From: Aquipseudomonas alcaligenes
GTDB lineage: Bacteria > Pseudomonadota > Gammaproteobacteria > Pseudomonadales > Pseudomonadaceae
Direction: 5' to 3'
Length of the DNA stretch: 64,000 nt
Assembly (NCBI RefSeq): GCF_900156545.1
Contig: NZ_FTNW01000004.1
Location: 124,001-188,000 of the forward strand
Shown here: piece after piece, positions 49,369 to 63,961 of the stretch
Numbering within the stretch: the first letter of the stretch is position 1
How the letters are laid out: each line of letters begins with the position of its first letter
Translations under genes and position numbers: made by a program
Notes under the pieces: model-generated
Seen by the model: only the letters and a program-made list of their open reading frames with translations
Databases searched by the model: none
What the model was told of the DNA's origin: nothing

Positions 49369-51228
49369 ATGCGCGCACAACCCGCCTGGCCAGCGCGTCT
49401 GGCCCTGGTTCTTCTTTTCCTGCTGCTGAGTGCGGCCAGCCTGATGATCTGGCGCCAACTGGAGCAGGACCAGCGCAGACGCCTGGATGATCGCCTCGAC
49501 TACCAGGCTCGCAGCCTGGCACGTCAGCTGGAAAACACCCTGCACACTGAAGTGGAGAGCCTGGGGCGTATCGCGCGACTGTGGAACAACCTGGGTCGCT
49601 TCTCCCAGGAGGATTGGGAAACTGAAGCGACAGCCGCACTCACCGATTTCCCGGCCTACCAGTCGGTGCAGTGGGTGGGCGCCGACCTGCAGATGCGCTG
49701 GCTGTTGCCCTTGCATGGCAATGAGGCGGCGCGCGACTTCCGCCTGATCCCGAGCCACCCCAACTACGCACTGGCCATGCAGGCCAGGCAGACGGGTGAG
49801 CAACGCTTTTCCAACAGTTTTGCGCTGGTCCAGGGCGGTCGGGGTTTCGTCCTCTACACCCCGCTTTACCTCCGGGATGCTCAAGGCCAGCGGCAGTTCG
49901 ACGGCTTCCTGCAGGGCGTTTTCCGCGTCGAGCCGCTAATGGACCAGTTGCTCACCCTGCTCGACAACGACAGTTTCAGCCTGCGCCTACTGGAAAACGG
50001 CCAGAGCCTGTACAGCCACGAACGCCCCGACACGCTGAGCCAGCGCGCCATCGAAGTGCCCCTGCGGCTACTCAACAATGACAGTTTCAGCCTGCAGCTG
50101 AGCCCGACCGAGCACCTGCTGCAGCAGATGTCCAACCCCCTGCCACAGGTCGTCCTGGGTGGCGGCCTGGCCATCAGCCTGCTGCTAGTGGCCGCACTGA
50201 GCCTGGCCCTGGAAAACGCCCGCCGCGCCGGCGCCATGCAGCGGATCAACCGCGATCTTCAGTCCGAAGCCGCACGCCGCGAGGAGACCGAGCGTGAACT
50301 GCGCGACAGCCGCGAGCGCTTGCAACTGGTGCTCGACCTGACCGACTCCAGTCGCGACAGCCTATTTATCTTTGACACCGAGAGCCGCAGGCTGCTGCAC
50401 ATGAACCAGGCCACCTATGCCGACCTCGGCTACCGGCCGGAGCAGTTCGCCCAGCTGCTGCGCGACGACCCCGAGAAGCTGCTGCCGGGCTTCTACGCCT
50501 GGCTGGACCTGGTTCGTCATGCCCAGAAGGACAACCAGTCGCGCATCTTCCAGCGCGAGCTGATCCGCCGCGACGGCAGTCGCCAGCCAGCCGAGATCAA
50601 CACCCAGCTGGTGCAACAGGGCGAGCGCGAATACCTGATCGCGGTGTCCCGCGACAACCGCGAGCGCCTGGAGCTGGAAGCACGCCTGCAGCGTCTGTCG
50701 CAGCTGGACGGCCTCACCGGCCTGTACAACCGACGTTTCTTCGACCAGCAGCTGCAGAGCGAATGGCGACGCCTACGGCGCCTCGGCGTTCCGCTGGCGC
50801 TGCTGATGCTGGATATCGACTACTTCAAAGCCTACAACGACAGCCTCGGCCACCTGGCCGGCGATGACACCCTGCGCCAGGTCGCCGGCGCATTGCAGGG
50901 CAGTCTGCAGCGCGAGGGCGATGTGGTGTGTCGTTATGGCGGTGAGGAATTCGCCATCATCCTCGCCAACACCGACCTGGAGGGCGCCCAGCATGTCGCC
51001 GCCAGGGTTCACGAACTCATTGCGAAACTGTCCATCGCACACCCGGGCAGTCCCGAGGGGCGCCTGACCCTGAGCATCGGCCTGGCGGTGGCCGACCCGG
51101 TAGCCGAGGAGCAGCCGGGCGGCCTGGTCGCACGCAGCGACCAGGCGCTTTACCAGGCCAAGCACGCCGGACGCAACCGCACCGGTGTCTGGAACGCCGG
51201 CGGCACGCCGCTTGACACACCCGCTTGA
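49369..51228 (+). CDS. Membrane diguanylate cyclase with CHASE, PAS and GGDEF domains
   Basis: This 619-aa protein should make cyclic di-GMP. It has a membrane helix at about 10-28, a periplasmic CHASE-like sensor (about 35-260; RGFVLYTPLYLRDAQG), a second helix near 262-283, a coiled linker, a PAS domain (about 305-430) and a GGDEF domain. The active site is intact as GGEEF at residues 524-528, and the product-inhibition site RxxD is present at 515-518 (REGD). There is no EAL domain. It sits between the EVE gene and the exporter operon, and I do not recall it at this place in P. aeruginosa. Confidence 0.9.
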   Translation: MRAQPAWPARLALVLLFLLLSAASLMIWRQLEQDQRRRLDDRLDYQARSLARQLENTLHTEVESLGRIARLWNNLGRFSQEDWETEATAALTDFPAYQSVQWVGADLQMRWLLPLHGNEAARDFRLIPSHPNYALAMQARQTGEQRFSNSFALVQGGRGFVLYTPLYLRDAQGQRQFDGFLQGVFRVEPLMDQLLTLLDNDSFSLRLLENGQSLYSHERPDTLSQRAIEVPLRLLNNDSFSLQLSPTEHLLQQMSNPLPQVVLGGGLAISLLLVAALSLALENARRAGAMQRINRDLQSEAARREETERELRDSRERLQLVLDLTDSSRDSLFIFDTESRRLLHMNQATYADLGYRPEQFAQLLRDDPEKLLPGFYAWLDLVRHAQKDNQSRIFQRELIRRDGSRQPAEINTQLVQQGEREYLIAVSRDNRERLELEARLQRLSQLDGLTGLYNRRFFDQQLQSEWRRLRRLGVPLALLMLDIDYFKAYNDSLGHLAGDDTLRQVAGALQGSLQREGDVVCRYGGEEFAIILANTDLEGAQHVAARVHELIAKLSIAHPGSPEGRLTLSIGLAVADPVAEEQPGGLVARSDQALYQAKHAGRNRTGVWNAGGTPLDTPA

Positions 51229-51238
51229 CCTGCATCAA
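51225..51238 (+). promoter_or_regulatory. ANR/FNR-like binding site upstream of the exporter operon
   Basis: TTGAC-CTGC-ATCAA matches the ANR/Dnr consensus TTGAY-N4-RTCAA at every fixed position. It overlaps the stop codon of the cyclase gene. A GAATAT -10 box lies at 51261-51266, so the site centre is 41.5 bp upstream of the expected start near 51273, the usual class II activator position. Confidence 0.6.
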
Positions 51239-51318
51239 GCCGCGCAGGCGACGAACGGCAGAATATGGAAGCCTGCTAACCATAGCCCCGAAGGGGCCGC
51301 TGAAGGGAAGCCCTGATA

Positions 51319-52383
51319 ATGAACGCGCAACGCCCCCTGCCCTACCTGATCGCCGCCGGACTCGCCCTGCTGGCCATGGCCGCCTGGTGGCAGTTGCGCC
51401 CGGTCGGTCTGGGTGAAGGCTTCGCCAGCGGCAACGGGCGTATCGAAGCCACCGAGGTGGATGTCGCCACCAAGCTGGCCGGGCGTATCGCCAGCATCGC
51501 CGTGGATGAGGGCGACTTCGTCCAGCCCGGCCAACTGCTCGCGCAGATGGACACCCAGGTGCTCGACGCCCAGCTGGCACAGGCCAGCGCCCAGCTCAAG
51601 CAGGCCGAGAATGGCGAAATCACCGCCGCCAGCCAGATCACCCTGCGCGAGAGCGAGAAAATCGCCGCCGAAGCCGTGGTACGCCAGCGCCAGGCCGAAT
51701 TACAAGCCGCGCGCAAGCGCCATGCCCGCAGCGCCAAGCTGGTCGAGCGCAACGCCATGGCCCAGCAGCAGCTGGACGACGATCTGGCACGCCTGCAGAG
51801 CACCGAGGCCGCGCTGGCCGCAGCACGTGCCCAGGTCAGCGCGGCCGCGGCCGGCATCGCCGCCGCACAGTCGCAGGCCATCGAGGCACAGTCGGCCACA
51901 GAAGCCGCCCGTGCCAGCGTCGCGCGGCTGCAGGCGGACATCGACGACAGCCAGCTGAAGGCGCCGCGCGCCGGACGCGTGCAATACCGCGTAACCCAGC
52001 CGGGTGAGGTGCTCGGCGCCGGGGGCAAGGTACTCAATCTGGTCGATCTCACCGACGTCTACATGACCTTCTTCCTGCCCGAGCGCCAGGCCGGCCGCGT
52101 CGCCCTGGACAGCGAGGTACGCCTGGTGATCGATGCCGCGCCGCAGTATGTGATTCCGGCCAGGGTCAGCTACGTGGCCAGCGTCGCCCAGTTCACCCCG
52201 AAGACCGTGGAAACCGCCAGCGAGCGCGAGAAGCTGATGTTCCGGGTCAAGGCGCGCATCGACCCCGAATTGCTGCGCAAGCACCTGGAGCAGGTGAAGA
52301 CCGGCGTGCCAGGCATGGCCTACCTGCGCCTCGATCCTGCAGCCGAGTGGCCGGCACACCTGGCGATCAAGGTTCCGCAATGA
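51319..52383 (+). CDS. HlyD family membrane fusion protein (YhiI-like)
   Basis: This 354-aa periplasmic adaptor links the inner membrane ABC exporter to an outer membrane channel. It has one N-terminal membrane anchor ([18 protein letters not shown]), the barrel-lipoyl start [20 protein letters not shown], a long Ala/Gln-rich coiled-coil hairpin (about 90-215) and the second lipoyl half [24 protein letters not shown]. It is the first gene of a three-gene exporter operon; its stop overlaps the next ATG by four bases. A short leader hairpin (GCCCC / GGGGC) lies at about 51285-51296. Substrate unknown. Confidence 0.92.
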
Positions 52384-55085
52384 ACCCGGCGGTCGCCCGC
52401 CTCAACGGTGTCGGCCTGCGCTATGGCGCGACCCACGCCCTCGAGGCCATCGACCTGAACCTGCCGGCGCAGCGCATGGTCGGCCTGATCGGTCCAGACG
52501 GCGTCGGCAAGTCCAGCCTGCTGGCGCTGATCGCCGGGGCGCGCCAGATCCAGGCCGGCAGCGTCGAAGTGCTGGGCGGCGATATGGCCGATGCGCGCCA
52601 CCGCCGGCGCGTCTGCCCGCATATCGCCTACATGCCGCAGGGCCTGGGCAAGAACCTCTACCCCACGCTGTCGGTGTTCGAGAACCTCGATTTCTTCGGC
52701 CGCCTGTTCGGCCAGGACGCCGCCGAACGCGCGCGGCGCATCGACGATCTGCTGCGCAGTACCGGCCTGTCGGCGTTCCGCGAACGCCCGGCGGGCAAGC
52801 TGTCCGGCGGCATGAAGCAGAAACTCGGGCTGTGCTGCGCGCTGATCCATGACCCTGACCTGCTGATCCTCGACGAGCCGACCACCGGCGTCGATCCGCT
52901 GTCGCGTAACCAGTTCTGGGAACTGATCGCGCGTATCCGCGCGCAGCGCCCGCAGATGAGCGTGCTGGTGGCCACCGCCTACATGGAGGAAGCCGAGCGC
53001 TTCGACCACCTGGTGGCGATGGATGCCGGTCGCGTACTGGCCGAAGGCAGCCCGGCCGAGCTGCGCACGCGCACGGGCTGCGCCAGCCTGGAGCAGGCCT
53101 TCATCGCCCTGCTGCCGGAGGAGAAACGTCGCGGCCACCGCGAGGTGGTGATCCAGCCCCTGCAGGACAACAGCGAGATCGCCATCGAGGCCAAAGGCCT
53201 GACCATGCGCTTCGGCGACTTCGTCGCGGTAGACGCGGTGTCGTTCCGCATCCGCCGTGGCGAGATCTTCGGCTTCCTCGGCTCCAACGGCTGCGGCAAG
53301 AGCACCACCATGAAGATGCTCACCGGCCTGCTGCCGGCCAGTTCCGGCGAAGCCCTGCTGTTCGGCCAGACGGTGGACCCGCGCGACATGGCCACGCGCC
53401 GGCGGGTCGGCTACATGTCGCAGGCCTTCTCCCTCTACAGCGAGCTGACGGTACGCCAGAACCTGGAACTGCACGCCCGCCTGTTCCATGTGCCGGCCTC
53501 ACAGATCGACGATCGCGTTGCCGCGATGGCGCGCCGCTTCGACCTCGACGCGGTCATGGACATGCTCCCTGAGCGTCTGCCGCTGGGTATTCGCCAACGC
53601 CTGTCGCTGGCCGTGGCGGTGATCCACCAGCCGGAGATCCTGATCCTCGACGAGCCGACCTCGGGCGTCGATCCGGTGGCGCGCGACGGCTTCTGGCAGC
53701 TGATGCTCGACCTGTCGCGCCAGGACGGCGTGACCATCTTCATCTCCACCCACTTCATGAACGAGGCGCAGCGCTGCGACCGCATCTCGCTGATGCACGC
53801 CGGCAAGGTGCTGGACAGCGACACGCCGCAGGCGCTGATGGCCAAGCGCGGGCTGGACAGCCTGGAAGCGACCTTCATCGCCTACCTGCAGGAGGCGGTC
53901 GGCGAGCAACCGGCGAACACCGCGCCGCCGCTGGAACAGGCGCCGCCGCCACAACGCCAGCGCTTCAGCCTGCGCCGCCTGTTCAGCTACGCCCGCCGCG
54001 AAGCGCTGGAACTGCGCCGCGACCCGATCCGCGGCGGCATGGCCCTCCTGGGAACGGTACTGCTGCTGTTCATCATCGGCTACGGCATCAGCCTGGATGT
54101 CGAGGACCTGACCTTCGCCGTGCTCGACCGCGACCAGACCACCACCAGCCAGGAGTACCACCGCAACCTCTCCGGCTCGCGCTACTTCCTGGAGAAGCCG
54201 GCGCTGCGCGACTACGCCGACCTGGAGCGGCGCCTGCGCAATGGCGACATCAGCCTGGCGGTGGAGATCCCGCCGCACTTCGGCCGCGACCTCAAGCGTG
54301 GCGCCAGCCCGCAGATCGGCATGTGGATCGACGGCGCCATGCCGACCCGTGCCGAGACCATCAAGGGCTACGTCGCCGGCCTACACCAGCACTACCTGGC
54401 CGAGCTGGCCCGGCGCTCGCCGCAGCCGCTGGCCGCCAGCGCCGCCGGCCTGGAGGTGCGCTACCGCTACAACCCGGACGTCGAGAGCCTCAAAGCCATG
54501 GTGCCGGCAGTGATCCCGCTGCTGCTGATGCTGATCCCGGCCATGCTCACGGCGCTCGGCGTGGTGCGCGAGAAGGAGCTGGGTTCGATCATCAACCTCT
54601 ATGTCACCCCGGTCACGCGCCTGGAATTCCTCATCGGCAAGCAGCTGCCCTACATCGCGCTCGGCCTGTTCAACTGCGCCCTGCTGGTGTTGCTGGCGGT
54701 GACGGTATTCGATGTGCCGCTGAAGGGCAGCGTGCTCACCCTCGGCCTCGGCGCGCTGCTCTATATCGCCTGCGCTACCGGCCTGGGGCTGCTGATGTCG
54801 ACCTTCACCAACAGCCAAATCGCCGCCGTGTTCGGTACAGCCATCGCCACCCTGCTGCCGGCCATCCAGTTCTCCGGGCTGATCTACCCGGTCGCCTCGC
54901 TGGAAGGCTTCGGCGCCCTGGTCGGCCAGTTGTACCCGACCTCGCAGTTCCTGGTGATCAGCCGCGGCGTGTTCTCCAAGGCGCTCGAGCTGCGCGACCT
55001 GCTCGGCTCTTTCGTCGCCCTGGCGCTGACCGTGCCGCTGCTCACCCTGCTCAGCGCCAGCCTGCTGCGCAAACAGGAGGTGTGA
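52380..55085 (+). CDS. ABC-ABC-permease fusion exporter protein (RbbA/YhiH-like)
   Basis: This 901-aa protein carries two ABC ATPase domains followed by an ABC-2 type permease. ATPase 1 has Walker [10 protein letters not shown] near residue 38, signature LSGGMKQ and Walker [14 protein letters not shown]. ATPase 2 has GSNGCGKST near 301, a degenerate signature (LPLGIRQR) and Walker [14 protein letters not shown]. The permease part (about 545-900) has an N-terminal helix, a large periplasmic domain and five C-terminal helices. E. coli RbbA of the same layout has been described as ribosome associated; transport of drugs or other compounds is the more usual family view. Overlaps both neighbours. 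Confidence 0.92.
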
Positions 55086-56209
55086 TGGAACACCTGGCCA
55101 ACATCCTCCACCTCGGCATCAAGGAGCTGCGCAGCCTGCAGCATGATCTGGCGCTGGTGCTGCTGATCCTCTGGGCCTTCAGCCTGGGGGTGTACTCCTC
55201 GGCCACCAGCATGCCGGAAAGCCTGCACAACGCCGCCATCGCGGTGGTCGACGAAGACCAGTCACAGCTCTCCGAGCGCCTGGTCCAGGCCTTCCAGGCC
55301 CCCTACTTCCGCACCCCGGAACGCATCGACCTGGGCCAGATGGACCAGGGCATGGACTCCGGGCGCTACACCTTCACCCTCAACATCCCGCCGAACTTCC
55401 AGCGCGACGTGCTGGCCGGGCGCAGCCCGGCGATCCAGCTCAACGTCGATGCCACCCAGGTAAGCATGGCCTTCACCGGCGCCGGCTATATCCAGAGTAT
55501 CGGCGCCAGCGAAGTGGCCGAGTTCGTCCGCCACTACCGTGGCGAGCAGCCGCAGACGGTGGAGCTGGCGGTGCGCGTGCAGTTCAACCCGAACCTGACG
55601 CGCAGCTGGTTCGGCTCAGTGATGGAGGTGATCAACCAGATCACCATGCTGTCGATCATCCTCACCGGCGCCGCGCTGATCCGCGAACGCGAACACGGCA
55701 CCGTAGAGCACCTGCTGGTGATGCCGGTGACGCCGCTGGAGATCATGCTGGCCAAGGTCTGGTCGATGGGGCTGGTGGTGCTGACGGCGGCAGCGCTGTC
55801 GCTGCTGCTGGTGGTACAGGGCTGGTTGCAGGTGCCGATCGAAGGCTCGCTGGCGCTGTTCCTCGGCGGCGCGGCGCTACACCTGTTCGCCACCACTTCG
55901 ATGGGCATCTTCTTCGGCACCGTGGCGCGCTCGATGCCGCAGCTGGGCCTGCTGATCATCTTGGTGCTGCTGCCGCTGCAGATCCTTTCCGGCGGCACCA
56001 CACCACGCGAAAGCATGCCGGAGCTGGTGCAGCAGATCATGCTGGCGGCGCCGACCACCCACTTCGTCGATCTGGCCCAGGCCATTCTCTACCGCGGCGC
56101 CGGGCTGTCCATCATCTGGCCGCAGCTGCTGGCCATCGCCGGCATCGGCACGCTGTTTTTCATCGCGGCGCTGACGCGCTTTCGCAAGACCCTGGCGCAG
56201 ATGGCCTAG
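55085..56209 (+). CDS. ABC-2 type permease (YhhJ-like)
   Basis: This 374-aa permease starts [21 protein letters not shown], with an N-terminal membrane helix (LALVLLILWAFSLGVY), a periplasmic domain (about 45-175) and five to six C-terminal helices containing REREHGTVEHLLVMPVTPLEIMLAK, the typical ABC-2 loop. It is the second half-permease for the fused ATPase-permease encoded upstream. Its ATG overlaps the previous stop (TGATG). The order HlyD, ABC-ABC-permease, permease equals E. coli yhiI-rbbA-yhhJ. Confidence 0.93.
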   Translation: MEHLANILHLGIKELRSLQHDLALVLLILWAFSLGVYSSATSMPESLHNAAIAVVDEDQSQLSERLVQAFQAPYFRTPERIDLGQMDQGMDSGRYTFTLNIPPNFQRDVLAGRSPAIQLNVDATQVSMAFTGAGYIQSIGASEVAEFVRHYRGEQPQTVELAVRVQFNPNLTRSWFGSVMEVINQITMLSIILTGAALIREREHGTVEHLLVMPVTPLEIMLAKVWSMGLVVLTAAALSLLLVVQGWLQVPIEGSLALFLGGAALHLFATTSMGIFFGTVARSMPQLGLLIILVLLPLQILSGGTTPRESMPELVQQIMLAAPTTHFVDLAQAILYRGAGLSIIWPQLLAIAGIGTLFFIAALTRFRKTLAQMA

Positions 56210-62461: not shown

Positions 62462-63961
62462 ATGCCCACTACCGCCAAAGAGTTTCCCCTGATCGCCGCC
62501 ATCGACCTGGGCTCCAACAGCTTCCACATGGTGCTGGCCAAGGCCGATCACGGCGAAATCCGCATCCTCGAGCGGCTCGGCGAGAAAGTTCAGCTGGCTG
62601 CGGGCCTGGATGAGGAGCGCCAGCTCAGCGAAGAGGCCATGCAGCGCGGCCTGGACTGCCTGCGCCGCTTTGGCCAGCTGATCCAGGGCCTGCCGCAGGG
62701 CGCCGTGCGCATCGTCGGCACCAACGCCCTGCGCGAGGCGCGCAACCGCGCCGAGTTCATCCGCCGCGCCAACGAGCTGCTCGGCCACCAGGTGGAAGTC
62801 ATCTCCGGTCGCGAGGAAGCGCGCCTGATCTACCTAGGTGTGTCGCACAGCATCGCCGACACCCCCGGCAAGCGCCTGGTCGTCGACATCGGCGGCGGCA
62901 GTACCGAGTTCATCGTCGGCCAGCGCTTCGAGCCGCTGCTGCGCGAGAGCCTGCAGATGGGCTGCGTCAGCTTCACCCAGCGCTACTTCCGTGACGGCAA
63001 GGTCACCCCGGCGCGCTACGCCCAGGCCTACACCGCCGCGCGGCTGGAACTGATGAACATCGAGCAGGGCCTGCAGCGCCTGGGCTGGCAGGAGTCGGTC
63101 GGTGCCTCCGGAACCATTCGCGCCGTGGGCCTGGCGATCAAGGCCGGCGGCCTGGGCAACGGCGAGATCAACCCCGAGGGCCTGGCCTGGCTGAAGCGCA
63201 AGGTGTTCAAGCTGGGCGAGGTGGACAAGCTGGAGATCGACGGCATCAAGCCTGACCGCCGGCAGATTTTCCCGGCCGGCCTAGCCATCGCCGAGGCCAT
63301 CTTCGACGCCCTCGACCTGCAGCGCATGGATCATTCCGAAGGCGCGCTGCGCGAGGGTGTGCTCTACGACCTGCTCGGCCGCCACCATCACGAGGACGTG
63401 CGCGAACGCACCCTGGGCGCGCTGATGGAGCGCTACCACGTCGACCTGCAGCAGGCCGCGCGGGTCGAGGCCAAGGCGTTGCAGGCCCTGGAAAAAGTCG
63501 CCGAGGCCTGGCAACTGGACCAGGACTGGCACCGCGACCTGCTGCAGTGGGGCGCGCGGGTCCACGAGATCGGCCTGGACATCGCCCACTACCAGTACCA
63601 CAAGCATGGCGCCTACCTGATCGAGCACTCGGACCTGTCCGGCTTCTCCCGCCGTGACCAGCTGATGCTGGCCCTGCTGGTGCGCGGCCACCGCCGCAAC
63701 ATCCCCAAGGACCGCTTCGCCGAGTTCGGCGACGACGGCGTGCAGCTGCTGCGCCTGTGCGTACTGCTGCGCTTCGCCATCCTGTTCCACCACATCCGCG
63801 GTACCCAGGAAATGCCCAAGGTGCAGCTCAAGGCCGGCCCGCAGAGCCTCGACCTGACCTTCCCGGAAGGCTGGCTGGCCGCCAACCCGCTGACCCAGGC
63901 CGACTTCGAACAGGAAGCCGAGTGGCTGACCCGCATCAACTTCGTGCTGACCGTGCGCTGA
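62462..63961 (+). CDS. ppx: Exopolyphosphatase
   Basis: Ppx releases phosphate from the ends of polyphosphate chains and is related to GppA. The 499-aa protein has the ASKHA phosphate-binding motifs [14 protein letters not shown] near residue 12 and [14 protein letters not shown] near 142, with the [13 protein letters not shown] segment, and a C-terminal HD-like domain (about 320-499; [19 protein letters not shown]). The ATG at 62462 ([10 protein letters not shown]) is preferred over an in-frame start at 62396. It is divergent from trxA. A terminator palindrome begins after its stop and is cut by the window edge. Confidence 0.96.

Follow-up and report, generated by a model that had tools for sequence, protein, structure and literature searches.

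A 64,000-nucleotide stretch of the Aquipseudomonas alcaligenes genome (the window) contains, at the junction between a diguanylate cyclase gene and an exporter operon, a sequence resembling the binding site of the oxygen-responsive regulators Anr and FNR. Its position raises the question of whose sequence it is: does it form part of a promoter that places the exporter under the control of oxygen, or does it belong to the end of the cyclase gene, with which it overlaps? We addressed this question using the sequence of the window, the remainder of the genome and the corresponding loci of relatives.

The exporter operon and its upstream gene

All features described below are on the forward strand. 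The upstream gene (49369..51228) encodes a CHASE-PAS-GGDEF diguanylate cyclase and is separated by 90 bases from three overlapping genes: one for an HlyD-type membrane-fusion protein (51319..52383), one for an RbbA-type double-ATPase/permease ABC protein (52380..55085, a 4-base overlap with the HlyD gene) and one for a YhhJ-like ABC-2 permease (55085..56209, a 1-base overlap with the RbbA gene). The ABC protein passes the RbbA equivalog model NF033858 with 1572 bits (cut-off 1050) and, together with the overlapping arrangement of the genes, this bears out the HlyD/RbbA/YhhJ-type exporter operon proposed in a first-pass annotation of the window. The first protein fails the HlyD equivalog model PRK03598 (NF002939; 155 bits, cut-off 393): the product of 51319-52383 is an HlyD-type adaptor outside the PRK03598 equivalog.

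A scan of 51100-51400 found no terminator-like site separating cyclase and operon. Read-through may accordingly contribute some transcription that does not depend on oxygen. Taken further, the short gap and the lack of such a site in the scanned interval favor an alternative in which the operon is transcribed mostly by read-through from the eve–cyclase genes, with the box providing minor tuning. We return to this alternative once the relatives have been described.

A box at class II distance from a −10-like hexamer

The candidate Anr/FNR box, TTGACCTGCATCAA, occupies 51225..51238 (centre 51231.5) and matches all ten fixed bases of the consensus TTGAY-N4-RTCAA; direct reading of the sequence confirms both this fit, previously claimed for the ANR/Dnr consensus, and the reported overlap with the stop codon, the TGA of the cyclase reading frame (49369-51228) being inside the box. 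A −10-like hexamer, GAATAT, is located 22 bases 3′ of the box (51261..51266). With the transcription start set seven bases past the end of this hexamer, at 51273, a position predicted from the spacing, the centre of the box falls at −41.5. Boxes at class II FNR-dependent promoters are centred near −41.5. The window has this geometry (a centre at about −41.5 and about 22 bases to the −10 hexamer), and the class II spacing noted in the first-pass annotation is upheld.

GAATAT agrees with TATAAT at three of six bases, and a sigma-70 consensus scan of 51100-51400 called no promoter. Weak −35 and −10 elements are common at activated promoters. The position of GAATAT is taken in several relatives by GAAAAT, GAGAAT or GACAAT. 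We also considered TTGACC as a sigma-70 −35 element in its own right, but the hexamer 17 bases further on, GCGACG, is no −10 and the consensus scan is silent; this possibility was ruled out.

The leader that would follow from the predicted start comprises 46 bases (51273..51318). It includes a Shine-Dalgarno-like GAAGGGAA at 51302-51309 and an inverted repeat, GCCCC-GAA-GGGGC, at 51285-51297 that may form a hairpin. A conserved leader hairpin was considered and dropped: in a loose alignment the stem is absent in one relative (L053) and poor in two others (L059 and L064). Leader stems built from other letters fold in many relatives, but not in all.

Frequency of the box in the window and the genome

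A match of this kind might arise by chance, or be constrained by coding and kept because the end of the cyclase gene is kept. When one mismatch is allowed the window contains three matches against 1.73 expected, and 22 of 100 shuffled sequences reach three: this count is unremarkable relative to chance and is as such an explanation would have it. The exact pattern, TTGAYN4ATCAA, is rare: it occurs once in the window against an expectation of 0.05 (at least one match in 3 of 100 shuffles), which argues against such an origin. The one-mismatch boxes at 718-731 and 63926-63939 are both within long open reading frames. The latter was rejected as a promoter element, because it sits at the end of a coding frame and is followed, past the edge of the window, by a terminator-like palindrome with a T run and by a facing gene.

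Throughout the genome the exact pattern gives 19 strand hits, corresponding to 13 distinct places; the reversed control gives one forward and one reverse hit. Among the 12 other boxes, the genes behind four are, by family models, hemN, arcD (arginine–ornithine antiporter), ccoN and the gene for cytochrome bd subunit I, the last of these calls being below equivalog cut-offs with a query truncated at 400 residues. The hemN, arcD, ccoN and cytochrome bd genes are textbook Anr targets. Both hemN and cioA are given as Anr targets in the text of PMC6588701.

Two further boxes are worth recording. One, TTGATTTCGATCAA (L005:2031-2044; G000:C3:244030), is fully palindromic and lies ~100 bases 5′ of an open reading frame that by eye is rpoH-like (sigma-32). 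The other, TTGATCCGTATCAA (L014:2034-2047; G000:C10:375833), precedes the gene for a flavodoxin-like protein. Of six further box genes inspected in the genome, two (hemN and ccoN) have the motif NANNNT 22 bases past the box; at the boxes of arcD, the cytochrome bd gene, the rpoH-like frame and the flavodoxin-like gene it was not seen at this distance.

Conservation of the box in relatives

The first-pass annotation had named conservation in relatives that keep the operon as a check on the box. Relatives were obtained by a search of genome contigs, which returned at least 80 loci, and by comparison of the window's HlyD with 398 genomes of the genus, 41 of which had a match at 1e-100. Thinning by shared 10-mers reduced the pooled 149 loci to 111; L166 was too short and was left out, and the two HlyD paralogues from the same genome (L173 and L174) were left out of the counts. 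The box was sought 40–250 bases 5′ of the chosen ATG (30–250 bases in the wider subfamily-B set described below), a start codon that may be wrong for some genes. An anchor gene (EVE, cyclase or fliL-like) in the available flanking DNA qualified a locus as syntenic.

The box proved to be conserved. Among the matches listed, all 34 loci with HlyD identity of at least 81% have a box at 9 or 10 of 10 positions (29 perfect, 5 at 9/10; the rows are partly redundant), as do all 15 loci of the same class that remain after thinning. In subfamily A, to which the window belongs, the box is present in 30 of 31 thinned syntenic loci among the matches listed (17 perfect, 13 at 9/10). Subfamily-A loci for which no anchor was found have no perfect box among the 55 thinned matches listed, and 16 of the 55 have one at 9/10; upstream DNA extends to only ~1.5 kb for some, so that an anchor can be missed and some of these 55 may be syntenic. 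Controls were nearly empty: unrelated HlyD genes had a box in none of seven cases among the matches listed, and reversed upstream sequences gave a single 9/10 match in 111.

A second subfamily (B), with an EVE gene upstream, shares 41–49% HlyD identity with subfamily A (41–44% by tblastn, 45–49% in another comparison). Here the box is found in 18 of 18 thinned loci among the matches listed, 17 of them perfect. When the 398 genomes were searched with a subfamily-B HlyD, 160 gave a hit at 1e-60; some of these hits are subfamily A. The wider set consists of 156 loci (six places are present twice), or 149 distinct upstream sequences, a few weaker matches having been left out; the EVE anchor was checked in the 18 thinned loci. 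Among the matches listed, every one of the 149 distinct upstreams contains the box (136 perfect, 13 at 9/10), whereas shuffled upstreams yield on average 0.02 perfect boxes and 1.91 at nine or better per set.

One exception among operon-keeping relatives is L063 and its near copy L151: neither has a box within 250 bases, and both keep operon and cyclase (L063 also EVE). These may represent a natural loss of oxygen control. In three loci (L148, L150 and L153) the box is 173–229 bases before the chosen start.

Degenerate boxes are seen in many Stutzerimonas copies. Three of these, with no anchor gene found (L071, L076 and L092), carry TTGACTCAGGCTAA, TTGATCTGGATGAA and TTGATCCAGATACA, respectively, 66–69 bases before the start, with a −10-like hexamer 22–23 bases past the degenerate box. 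Separately, four Pseudomonas loci (L074, L100, L102 and L169) are second or third hlyD-rbbA(-yhhJ) operons with no anchor found and no box (best 7/10).

The relationship between the box and the cyclase gene varies. Of 35 rows having both, the cyclase stop lies before the box in 4, within it in 10 and after it in 21 (two more rows have a cyclase and no box). The box is therefore over the stop, or inside cyclase coding sequence, in 31 of the 35, as would be expected were it kept for the sake of the cyclase. Against this, the stop moves among relatives while the box stays: the stop begins at +1, +20, +41, −11, −22 or −42 from the start of the box. Moreover, six thinned syntenic loci (L049, L148, L021, L147, L153 and L098) have a box at 9–10/10 with EVE directly upstream and no cyclase found in the available DNA, and eight thinned loci with the P. 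citronellolis/nitroreducens arrangement, in which a fliL-like gene lies opposite the start of the operon, keep the box at 9/10. The box thus outlasts both shifts of the cyclase stop and absence of the cyclase, and we assign it to the exporter, not to the cyclase. Given this, and its presence throughout the listed subfamily-B upstreams, we attach next to no credence to a chance or coding-constrained match.

Spacing in relatives

The distance between box and hexamer is also kept. Among the matches listed, NANNNT occurs exactly 22 bases past 34 of the 46 subfamily-A boxes scoring at least nine and past the box of 13 of the 18 thinned subfamily-B loci; the wider subfamily-B set has it at this distance in 119 of 149 upstreams. 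When each locus of the wider set is given one class within offsets 21–23, the remaining 30 have the motif at 21 (29 loci) or 23 (one locus). A second, lower peak appears at 29 (29/149) and 30 (52/149) in subfamily B, where offset counts overlap and one locus may count at several offsets, and at 30 (10/46) in subfamily A. The peak at 22 bases is the class II distance.

Box and spacing thus survive both a change of the upstream gene and an operon start that faces a fliL-like gene, which argues against read-through from the eve–cyclase genes as the main source of exporter transcription; we consider that alternative unlikely.

The regulator

The genome encodes an Fnr/Anr-type regulator, L127, that scores 319 bits against NF008365 (cut-off 228). 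Its translation contains CxxC-x5-C plus one more cysteine, and its gene is within ~3 kb of hemN. On these features L127 is a member of the Fnr family for which an oxygen-sensing role is predicted. HTH_Crp_2 matches seven places in the genome, of which three were read as proteins: L127, L128 (22.8 bits against the Fnr cut-off of 228) and L129, which by eye is CRP/Vfr-like and not Fnr-type.

The box could be real and yet read by another Crp/Fnr protein, for example Dnr, which responds to nitric oxide, instead of or alongside Anr. Anr and Dnr of P. aeruginosa have an indistinguishable shared site, according to the text of PMC6588701, and a Dnr may escape the HTH_Crp_2 model. Of the three proteins read among the seven matches, L127 alone is Fnr-type, and tables in PMC8575079 and PMC13086522 name Anr for P. 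aeruginosa. Reading by a protein other than Anr strikes us as very improbable.

Discussion

Together, the conservation of the box, its fixed spacing, the presence of an Fnr-type gene and the occurrence of boxes at known Anr targets support the original reading of an ANR/FNR-type site serving the exporter. The site is very probably a functional Anr box in a class II promoter that drives the hlyD-rbbA-yhhJ operon. From the observed box, spacing and conservation we infer binding, a start site and induction in A. alcaligenes along the following lines. As oxygen falls Anr would retain its [4Fe-4S] cluster; cluster-bearing Anr would dimerize and bind the box centred at −41.5; contact between bound Anr and RNA polymerase would then allow transcription from ~51273; and the three end-to-end overlapping genes should form an exporter.

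Anr control may, moreover, be an old feature of this chromosomal place in Pseudomonas: box and spacing would have stayed in place at the EVE-linked promoter as the exporter split into two subfamilies, the cyclase came or went, and the operon turned round in one group. We give this history an even chance. If it is true, then the exporter would meet a demand peculiar to cells short of oxygen and would belong in a near-core Anr regulon. The box offers a concrete connection, open to testing, between an RbbA-type exporter and oxygen limitation, one that is kept across a large Pseudomonas sample, and microaerobic cells are the place to look for the exporter's substrate.

Comparison with known systems

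The arrangement resembles that of class II FNR-dependent promoters in its palindromic TTGA-N6-TCAA and the 22 bases to the −10 hexamer, with the start being predicted here. The three-gene order is common to E. coli yhiI-rbbA-yhhJ, and the window's ABC protein passes the RbbA model. An FNR box ahead of the E. coli operon was looked for and rejected: a 16-kb stretch contains no exact box and three one-mismatch hits, none before yhiI.

PMC6588701 describes a core Anr regulon for five Pseudomonas species, with which the locus has box and regulator in common; the exporter is absent from the main-text core list of that paper. Our literature search found, outside supplementary material, nothing on genus-wide conservation of the box and, at the level of titles, nothing on control of the RbbA/YhhJ/YhiI exporter beyond the Anr papers cited here.

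The closest likeness is to P. aeruginosa PA5232-PA5231, an HlyD-family gene followed by a gene for an ABC protein in which ATP-binding and permease parts are fused. Judged by gene names and gene order, this pair is likely the counterpart of the window genes. The PAO1 operon presumably begins beside the fliL-like PA5233, an arrangement also seen in the P. citronellolis/nitroreducens group, whereas the window operon comes after EVE and cyclase genes. PA5232 is among the genes with an Anr box in P. aeruginosa strains and is described as quorum-regulated in the text of PMC6588701; PMC8575079, citing Trunk 2010 and Tribelli 2019, tabulates it as upregulated both by Anr and when oxygen is low; PMC13086522, citing Trunk 2010, lists both PA5231 and PA5232 as Anr-regulated; and a colony-morphology screen (PMC2246019) includes PA5231 among its listed mutants. 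Dependence on Anr is reported for this likely counterpart only. The regulator, the promoter architecture and, in P. aeruginosa, the likely counterpart were already known; our analysis adds that the box is conserved across a broad sampling of the genus, a diverged subfamily at the same locus among them.
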